Under the pieces are notes generated by a model that was not told the DNA's origin, made no database searches, and saw only the letters and a list, made by a program, of their open reading frames with translations. Shown piece after piece: positions 21,767-23,943 of a DNA stretch of 64,000 bases. The stretch spans positions 124,001 through 188,000 of the forward strand of contig JAHJLB010000014.1 of NCBI GenBank assembly GCA_018822105.1. The letters run 5' to 3'. The translations under genes were made by a program, and so were the position numbers. The stretch is from Pseudomonadota bacterium (GTDB lineage Bacteria; Desulfobacterota; Desulfovibrionia; Desulfovibrionales; Desulfovibrionaceae). Each line of letters begins with the position of its first letter. Position 1 is the stretch's first letter.

Positions 21767-22690
21767 CTAGGCGAAGGCCTTTTCCATGGGCGGAACGACC
21801 TGCTTCTTGCGGCTCATGCAGCCATCGACCCACATGGAGTTCAGCGCGCCGCCGACCTTGCCGCCGAAGGCCTTCTCGACCAGGGAGGCGTCGGAGGAGA
21901 CCACGAGGATCTCGGAGCCTTCCTTCATGATGTCGGTCAGGAGCAGCATGACGGTGTGGCGGCCGTCGGCCTGGAGCTTCTTGCACTCCTCCACCAAAGC
22001 GGGCTTGATCTTGTCCAGCAGGGCCAGGTCCAGAACCTCGACCTGGCCGATGCCGACCTTCTTGCCGCCCATGTTGAAGTCCTTGTAGTCGCGGTTCATC
22101 AGGTCAACGGCGGGGATGCCGTCAACGGAACCCTTGATCTTCAGCATGTCCATGCCCAGGGCCTTGTAGTCGGCCACGCCGGCGATCTTGGCCAGGCCTT
22201 CGACGGCCTTCTTGTCGGCGTCGGTGCAGGTGGGGGACTTGAAGAGCACGGTGTCGTTCAGGATGGCGAGCATCACGGCGCCGGCGATGTTCTTCGGAAT
22301 CTCGATGCCGTAGAACTCGTACATGGCCTTGATCACGGTGCCGGTGCAGCCCACGGGCCAAACCCACATCTCCAGGGGATTGGAGGTGGTGACGTCGCCC
22401 AGCTTGTGGTGGTCGACCACGAGCACGACCTTGCCCTTGTCCAGGTTGTCCAGGGCCTGGGACAGCTCGGTGGTGTCCACCAGGGCGATGTCCTTGCCGG
22501 TGGCGTCGGTCTCGATGGCCGGGGCGGCCAGACCGAAGGTCTTGAGCACGAAATCAGTGTCCGGGGTAACGGGACCCTGGGCCACGGCAGTGGCTTCCAT
22601 GCCGCGCTTGCTCAGCAGGTCGGCAACGGCGATGGCAGCGGTGATGGTATCGCAATCGGGATTTTTGTGACCAGCAACGATAATAGCCAT
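21767..22690 (-). CDS. ppaC: Manganese-dependent inorganic pyrophosphatase (family II)
   Basis: This DHH-family enzyme hydrolyses pyrophosphate to phosphate; in sulfate reducers it pulls sulfate activation (ATP sulfurylase) forward. The motifs are 'IVAGHKNPDCDTITAAI', 'IALVDTTELSQA', the DHH motif 'LVVDHHKLGDV', 'CTGTVIKAMYEF' and the DHHA2 region near 'IKGSVDGIPAVDLMNRDYK'. The C-terminus includes 'SDASLVEKAFG' and 'MSRKKQVVPPMEKAF'. The ATG has AGGAGGAC upstream. The length of 307 aa is typical. It is last in the block and may also have its own promoter in the 91-base gap. Confidence 0.96.
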   Translation of the reverse strand: MAIIVAGHKNPDCDTITAAIAVADLLSKRGMEATAVAQGPVTPDTDFVLKTFGLAAPAIETDATGKDIALVDTTELSQALDNLDKGKVVLVVDHHKLGDVTTSNPLEMWVWPVGCTGTVIKAMYEFYGIEIPKNIAGAVMLAILNDTVLFKSPTCTDADKKAVEGLAKIAGVADYKALGMDMLKIKGSVDGIPAVDLMNRDYKDFNMGGKKVGIGQVEVLDLALLDKIKPALVEECKKLQADGRHTVMLLLTDIMKEGSEILVVSSDASLVEKAFGGKVGGALNSMWVDGCMSRKKQVVPPMEKAFA

Positions 22691-22781: not shown

Positions 22782-23485
22782 TCAGAAGATGCCTGCCAGC
22801 CGGAAAAATCCGAGGGCCACCGCGCTCACCCCCACCGACAGGTACAGGCTGCGCAGCCGCAGGGAGAGCAGCCCGCCTATGCTGGCGGCGATGAGGAACT
22901 GATTCCAGGTGAGCTCCAGACCTTCCAAAAATCCGGCATACTGGTTGAGGGCAAAGCGCAGGAGCACGGCCAGTACCCCGGCACCGAGCACAAAAAACAC
23001 CCAGGAGACCACGAGCTTGCCCAGCAGCGTGCGCAGGATGAGCCTGCCCGGCACGCCGGGATCCACGGGCCTGCGCAGCCAGTGCAGCACCGAGCTGTAG
23101 GAGCGGTTCAGGCTGTCGCGCAGATTGCGGTCCAGCCGTGCGCCAAGCCAGGCCATGGGCAGGCCGCAGACAACGGCGCCAAAGACCAGGGGCGGGGAAT
23201 CCAGCCCGAAATACGTGGCCAGGGCCAGGCCGGTAAAGGCGGCCGCTGTCATGTGCGGCGGGATGAAGGTGCCGACAGGAAGGAAGTCGAGCCAGAGCAG
23301 CTCGTAGAAAATGGCTATATACAGGCAGGAGGTGAGGTTCCCGAAGAGCAGGCCCCAGAACAGGCCGATGACCAGGGGGCGCTCAAGGAGCCCGAGGCTT
23401 ACCGAAAAGCGGCAGAGCGAGAACAGGGCAAAAAAAAACCGACCGCGGCGAACCACATGGGACCGGTCAAAGGCATGTCGATCAT
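22782..23485 (-). pseudogene. PTS mannose-type IIC component, frameshifted at a T9 run
   Basis: The long frame (stop 22782) encodes a hydrophobic sorbose/mannose-family IIC: 'CRFSVSLGLLERPLVIGLFWGLLFG', several membrane helices, 'PVGTFIPPHMTAAAF'. The track start (GTG, MVRRGR) has no ribosome binding site. The natural start is ATG 23485, overlapping the IIB stop as ATGA with GAGG upstream, giving MIDMPLTGPMWFAAVGF before nine T residues (plus strand A 23430-23438). With 9 T the frame is lost; 7 or 10 would restore it to the rest of IIC. It may be a real mutation, slippage-based expression, phase variation or a sequencing error, since the remainder is intact. Confidence 0.8.
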
Positions 23486-23943
23486 GTGAACCTCACAGGC
23501 ACAGGGTCATTGGGCACGCAGCGGAAATCCAGCTCCACGCCCTTTCCTTGCAGGTAGCGCAGGCAGGACTCGTCGTCCGCGCCCAGGGACACGCTGGGCG
23601 AAAGCTGGCGCTTCCCGGTTCCATAGTGCAGGTTGCCCACGTTGAGCGTCTCCAGGCGCAGGCCCTTGTCCACGGCCCGGCGCACGTCCAGGCAGCAGGA
23701 AAAGAGCAGCAGGGTGGCGTCGCGGCCAGGCCCGTTCAGGCGCGAATCCCCGGCCAGCTGGTCGATGAGCAGAAATGCGCTGTCCACGGCCCTGGGTATG
23801 GCCAGGGCCATGATCTCCTGCTGCAGCTCGTCCCTGGCCAAGTCGTCGTTGCCGACGATGATGCTGCGCGCCCCGATGTAGGGAACCCATGCCTCCACCA
23901 CCTGGCCGTGGATGAGCCTGTTGTCCACGCGTACCCAGAACAT
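23482..23943 (-). CDS. PTS mannose-family IIB component
   Basis: This 153-aa cytosolic phosphocarrier passes phosphate from IIA to sugar or to a regulatory target. The phospho-histidine is His12 in 'RVDNRLIHGQVVEAWV', the family's signature start. 'SIIVGNDDLARDELQQEIMALAIP' is also typical. It lies four bases after IIA and its stop overlaps the natural IIC start. No sugar-catabolic gene is nearby, so the substrate is unknown. Confidence 0.92.
   Translation of the reverse strand: MFWVRVDNRLIHGQVVEAWVPYIGARSIIVGNDDLARDELQQEIMALAIPRAVDSAFLLIDQLAGDSRLNGPGRDATLLLFSCCLDVRRAVDKGLRLETLNVGNLHYGTGKRQLSPSVSLGADDESCLRYLQGKGVELDFRCVPNDPVPVRFT

Follow-up and report, generated by a model that had tools for sequence, protein, structure and literature searches.

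How a full-length membrane subunit might be produced from a gene whose start codon lies out of frame with the rest of its coding sequence is the question raised by the IIC gene of a phosphotransferase system (PTS) in the window, by which is meant the whole 64,000-nucleotide stretch of Desulfovibrionaceae DNA analysed. The start of this gene is separated from the IIC body by an uninterrupted run of nine T residues (T9). The relevant features are listed below.

21767..22690, minus strand: DHH/DHHA2 protein (manganese-dependent pyrophosphatase type, ppaC), downstream of IIC; profile match
22782..23438, minus strand: PTS IIC (EII-Sor, mannose class) body, from the FFF codons of the tract; PF03609, man-PTS IIC structures
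23399..23401, minus strand: start-frame TAA, formed by body codons GTA-AGC; such stops are enriched class-wide
23399..23485, minus strand: start-frame ORF, 28 aa if unslipped (ATG, N-terminal half of transmembrane helix 1, tract, TAA); from the minus-strand reading, the only hydrophobic frame
23430..23438, minus strand: T9 tract (U9 in mRNA), putative slippage site; FFF in the body frame, nnT TTT TTT TTG in the start frame
23482..23943, minus strand: PTS IIB (sorbose/mannose class), directly upstream of and overlapping the IIC start; PF03830
23947..24393, minus strand: PTS IIA (mannose class); PF03610
24448..25329, minus strand: rapZ; PF03668/PF22740
25345..25794, minus strand: ptsN-type IIA; PF00359
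25797..26339, minus strand: hpf-like ribosome hibernation factor; PF02482/PF16321
26375..27844, minus strand: rpoN (sigma-54); PF00309/PF04963/PF04552

The T9 tract and the split IIC gene

Reading of the minus strand revealed that the IIC start codon (ATG, 23485-23483) overlaps the stop codon of the IIB gene (TGA, 23484-23482). Translation from this ATG gives MIDMPLTGPMWFAAVGFFLPCSRSAAFR, which terminates at a TAA codon (23401-23399) after 28 codons; ahead of the tract the start frame reads MIDMPLTGPMWFAAVG, and is followed by T9 at 23438-23430 in the context GG-T9-GCC. The IIC body lies one base off this frame, and is open between the FFF codons (23438) and a TGA codon at 22784-22782. It matches the EII-Sor family (Pfam PF03609; E=2.5e-11, 43.9 bits versus a curated cut-off of 26.3), and the adjoining IIA and IIB genes are as befits a mannose-class PTS. 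The two frames are joined by the addition of one T or the removal of two (T10 or T7), such that MIDMPLTGPMWFAAVG continues directly into FFFALF. The initial annotation, which described a start at 23485 leading through GG-T9 off the frame of the IIC body, and T7 or T10 as the lengths that would restore it, is therefore borne out by the reading frames.

The tract has the composition and length associated with bacterial programmed transcriptional slippage, namely a homopolymer of approximately nine or more A or T residues within a gene. A pattern search identified only five occurrences of T9 or A9 in the 3.17-Mb assembly. Two belong to terminator-like hairpins as their T tails, one is the IIC tract, one is located in AT-rich, apparently intergenic DNA, and one is within in-frame coding sequence. 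Since runs of this type are so rare in the assembly, and the frame break is shared by 179 of 194 loci examined across the class, its occurrence in the IIC gene is above chance. The other coding T9 (L032:1501-1509) lies in an unbroken 360-aa ORF (Y-N-V-F-F-Y-K), the product of which would be truncated by slippage.

The gene order is rpoN-hpf-ptsN-rapZ-IIA-IIB-IIC-ppaC, with ppaC located within approximately 1.5 kb downstream of IIC in 54 of 80 named loci. The genes for IID, HPr and EI are found together on another contig (L271:6466-9387, G000 contig C61), apart from IIA-IIB-IIC. With the partner IID subunit encoded elsewhere alongside HPr and EI, slippage control in this PTS appears to be limited to IIC.

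Conservation across the class

A search conducted with the IIC body in relatives and in a set of named genomes yielded 194 distinct loci from the class, which include representatives of Humidesulfovibrio, Pseudodesulfovibrio, Solidesulfovibrio, Nitratidesulfovibrio, Halodesulfovibrio, Desulfomicrobium, Desulfohalobiaceae, Desulfonatronovibrio, Desulfonatronospira and other Desulfovibrionales. On the basis of these IIC loci the window genome falls within or beside Humidesulfovibrio. An exact T9, encoding the same body codons FFF-(A/V/G/T), is present in 181 of the 194 loci and is retained down to less than 30% identity in the IIC body. The upstream region is readable in 180 of the T9 loci, and in 179 of these the frame of the start codon, which is located 30-65 nt upstream of the tract (ATG in 172 of the 179), is offset from that of the body by one base. 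The T9 loci are related by descent, the 181 representing 99 sequence clusters. The combination used previously to recognise slippage sites, i.e. the arrangement of ORFs together with a run kept in non-identical homologues (PMC1088944), is thus found in 179 of 194 loci and 99 clusters.

The lone readable exception among the T9 loci, L075, has its start in the body frame; in the L075/L214 lineage the tract is kept with an in-frame ATG (A-FFF-G), which places the run inside a plain gene. Thirteen of the 194 loci lack T9, comprising three with T10, three with T8 and seven without a run. The start is in the body frame in all 12 of these loci that are readable, the 13th being truncated, and 17 orthologues outside the class but within the phylum likewise have no run and an in-frame start. 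A tree indicates one change between the outgroup and the class, followed by approximately 10 reversions within the class. Judged by these sequences, then, the frame break is not essential everywhere, some 10 lineages having returned to an in-frame gene. The T10 loci, which have an in-frame start, belong to two MAGs and one draft isolate genome (Salidesulfovibrio brasiliensis) (L156, L159 and L211), and may represent true reversions or read errors.

Location of the frame change

No ATG, GTG or TTG codon occurs in the body frame ahead of the tract in 128 of the 181 T9 loci, and in three species (L230, L237 and L247) a body-frame TAG is found immediately before the tract. Since this stop codon abuts the tract, the change of frame must take place at the tract itself. 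Across 98 clusters, the ten codons that precede the tract have a mean hydropathy of 1.15 in the start frame, with no stops, versus -0.62 with 25 stops and 0.01 with 40 stops in the other two frames. In-frame relatives carry the matching N-terminus within one protein, as illustrated by L211 (MMASPFIWFAVVAFFFALF) and L053 (MSVGTVGWFALVSLFFAVF). The structure predicted for the L211 protein, as an in-frame relative of the window IIC, has a mean pLDDT of 88.6 with a first helix that spans residues 5-25, and the tract encodes residues 14-16. According to the predicted structure, the IIC body alone would consequently lose approximately half of transmembrane helix 1; the missing half is encoded by the start frame.

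These observations bear directly on whether IIC might start independently downstream of the tract, at the GTG at 23456 or inside the body, with the upstream ORF serving as a coupling leader. A GTG at position -18 is present in the window and in most Humidesulfovibrio relatives, but is mainly restricted to that genus, and the absence of body-frame start codons in most T9 loci, the TAG at the tract in three species and the loss of half a helix that the start frame supplies all speak against such a start, which is considered very improbable. The proposal that orthologues start at the downstream GTG was rejected on the first two of these grounds.

Signs of selection on the tract and on nearby stop codons

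None of the nine T residues varies among the 181 T9 loci. The first occupies the wobble position of a GCT, GGT, AGT or TGT codon, although the rest of these genes is dominated by codons ending in C; the last yields TTT although TTC is nearly as common. A codon-usage test with 99 cluster representatives returned log10 P values of -75 for the first T and -27 for the last, which, as the clusters are still related, only indicate strength. By this test the whole run is under constraint, beyond the extent of a ribosomal heptamer, as would be expected of transcriptional slippage.

The sequence downstream of the tract shows a related bias. A start-frame stop is encountered within 12 codons after the tract in 83% of clusters, versus 47% (sd 3.4) in synonymous shuffles, and A-ending V, I and L codons show enrichment solely at positions where they form such a stop (26% at codons 9-13, 7-8% beyond). 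Third-frame stops are depleted in the first 12 codons after the tract (14% of clusters versus 36% in synonymous shuffles), which may stem from amino-acid context. T10 is seen in three loci only, though a single replication slip would give a plain gene; the near absence of a variant just one base away argues, from sequence conservation, that selection favours the frame shift itself.

Proposed mechanism of the frame change

The explanation favoured here is that IIC is expressed via conserved programmed transcriptional slippage from U9 to U10, to which a probability of roughly 0.8 is assigned. RNA polymerase would stutter on T9 (template A9), such that a proportion of transcripts would gain one U (U10) or, more rarely, lose two. 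In the slipped mRNA, translation from the IIB-overlapping ATG would run into the IIC body and give a full-length membrane protein of ∼235 aa, whereas the unslipped mRNA would encode a peptide of ∼25-30 aa, terminated shortly past the tract. The arrangement would probably keep IIC at a constant, small share of IIA and IIB output. Of the components of this model, the assignment of the shift to RNA polymerase rather than the ribosome, its +1 direction, its efficiency and its purpose are those that we infer. Transcriptional slippage explains why the full run of nine is kept, and the initial suggestion of slippage-dependent expression gains strong support from the conservation of T9. E. coli RNA polymerase has been reported to rescue the reading frame at T7 and T8 with efficiencies of 5-10%, with T runs preferred over A runs (PMC6260861).

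The main rival is -1 programmed ribosomal frameshifting on U_UUU_UUU or U_UUU_UUG, which would join the same frames and give the same protein. Both heptamers are present within T9 in the right phase, and the frame change required at the tract is indeed -1, as ribosomal frameshifting gives. However, with either heptamer one end of the run (T8-T9 or T1-T3) would be unconstrained, whereas all nine residues are invariant in the face of codon usage. Moreover, none of the usual stimulators was evident: no pseudoknot-free RNA structure was detected upstream or downstream of the tract (mean z +0.1 to +0.4), and an SD-like element is located upstream in only 2 of 98 cases. Conservation cannot finally separate the ribosomal mechanism from transcriptional slippage; the data as a whole render the former unlikely.

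The initial annotation had also raised phase-variable expression, in which replication slippage would toggle IIC between on (T10 or T7) and off (T9) states among cells, and had regarded sequencing error as the main alternative. In-frame T10 loci do exist, in the two MAGs and the draft isolate genome referred to above, but a switching locus should show mixed tract lengths, whereas the 'off' length would be nearly fixed among species (181 T9 versus three T10) and uncompensated T7, T8 or T11 tracts are absent from the 194 loci. Nor does phase variation predict the enrichment of start-frame stops, and it is accordingly given very little weight. Homopolymers are error-prone, and annotators would call this gene frameshifted, as expected of an assembly or sequencing error or of a decaying pseudogene. 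Conversely, the same T9 and frame break recur class-wide in independent assemblies, single-contig genomes and those of named isolates among them, on which grounds sequencing error was rejected, and the IIC body is intact, stop-free and variable at third positions, unlike that of a pseudogene. This explanation is the least credible of those considered, and is refuted by the conservation of T9.

Transcriptional slippage at T9 could, in addition, serve a regulatory function. If slippage varied with the level of UTP or the speed of transcription, the tract would act as a sensor by which the share of full-length IIC would track the nucleotide and energy state of the cell. This is a speculative extension, doubtful at present, though a sensor role would explain the rarity of plain T10 reversion; were it true, sugar uptake via the PTS, or PTS signalling through the rpoN-ptsN-rapZ cluster, would follow nucleotide and energy state.

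Relation to known systems

The closest parallel is with mxiE of Shigella flexneri, in which a U run likewise separates a 5' ORF from the main ORF, and the longer product depends on an extra untemplated nucleotide that fuses the two (PMC1088944). Whereas mxiE is a plasmid-borne virulence regulator with RNA evidence, IIC is a chromosomal PTS membrane subunit, present class-wide and known here from sequence. The dnaX gene of Thermus thermophilus similarly has nine identical A/T bases in a chromosomal gene, with an early stop near the run in one frame (PMC1088944), but there the A9 run is late in the gene and gives rise to a shorter second product, whereas slippage in IIC would occur near the start and be needed for the only full-length product. 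In tssM1 of Citrobacter rodentium, an A11 run permits restoration of the frame without SD-like or structural stimulators, with frameshifting of ∼20% (PMC4256274). The two cases differ in that the A run of tssM1 is long and each of its two variants is put to use, whereas IIC has T9 and a very short unslipped peptide.

With respect to the protein itself, the in-frame relative and man-PTS structures share a fold with a Foldseek probability of 1.00, albeit with E values of at least 2.4e-3, i.e. above 0.001. Membership of the EII-Sor family and a sequence match to chains 7dyr and 6k1h relate IIC to ManY, the mannose-class IIC. Unlike that for ManY, the IIC gene is split by T9, and the gene for its IID partner lies apart from it, together with those for HPr and EI.

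A survey of 108 genomes identified seven conserved slippage cases or groups, six of which were insertion sequences (PMC1088944). The D. vulgaris PTS has been treated as a putative mannose-class transporter in passages that make no mention of a frameshift (PMC2405797), and two later works refer in their main text to neither this gene nor Desulfovibrio. A literature search that combined slippage with Desulfovibrio or sulfate reducers gave no match, and no description of this site was found, though an earlier listing is possible in Sharma et al. 2011 or in the supplements of Antonov 2013 and Baranov 2005.

Implications

Few cases of conserved slippage have been documented in the chromosomal genes of bacteria. 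Judged from the loci sampled, the T9-split IIC gene is typical of almost every species in this class of sulfate-reducing bacteria, and production of full-length IIC probably relies on RNA polymerase stuttering at the nine T residues. The best reading of the arrangement is that it is the one known from Shigella mxiE, in this instance in a class-wide chromosomal PTS gene. If this is true, a T9 tract kept in GC-rich genomes throughout nearly the whole class would constitute an unusually well-conserved example of slippage, in a chromosomal transporter subunit, and one that is easy to test. Such IIC genes may easily be labelled as frameshifted, or assigned the wrong start, during annotation, with the result that IIC, and the completeness of the PTS, may be misjudged in Desulfovibrionales genomes.
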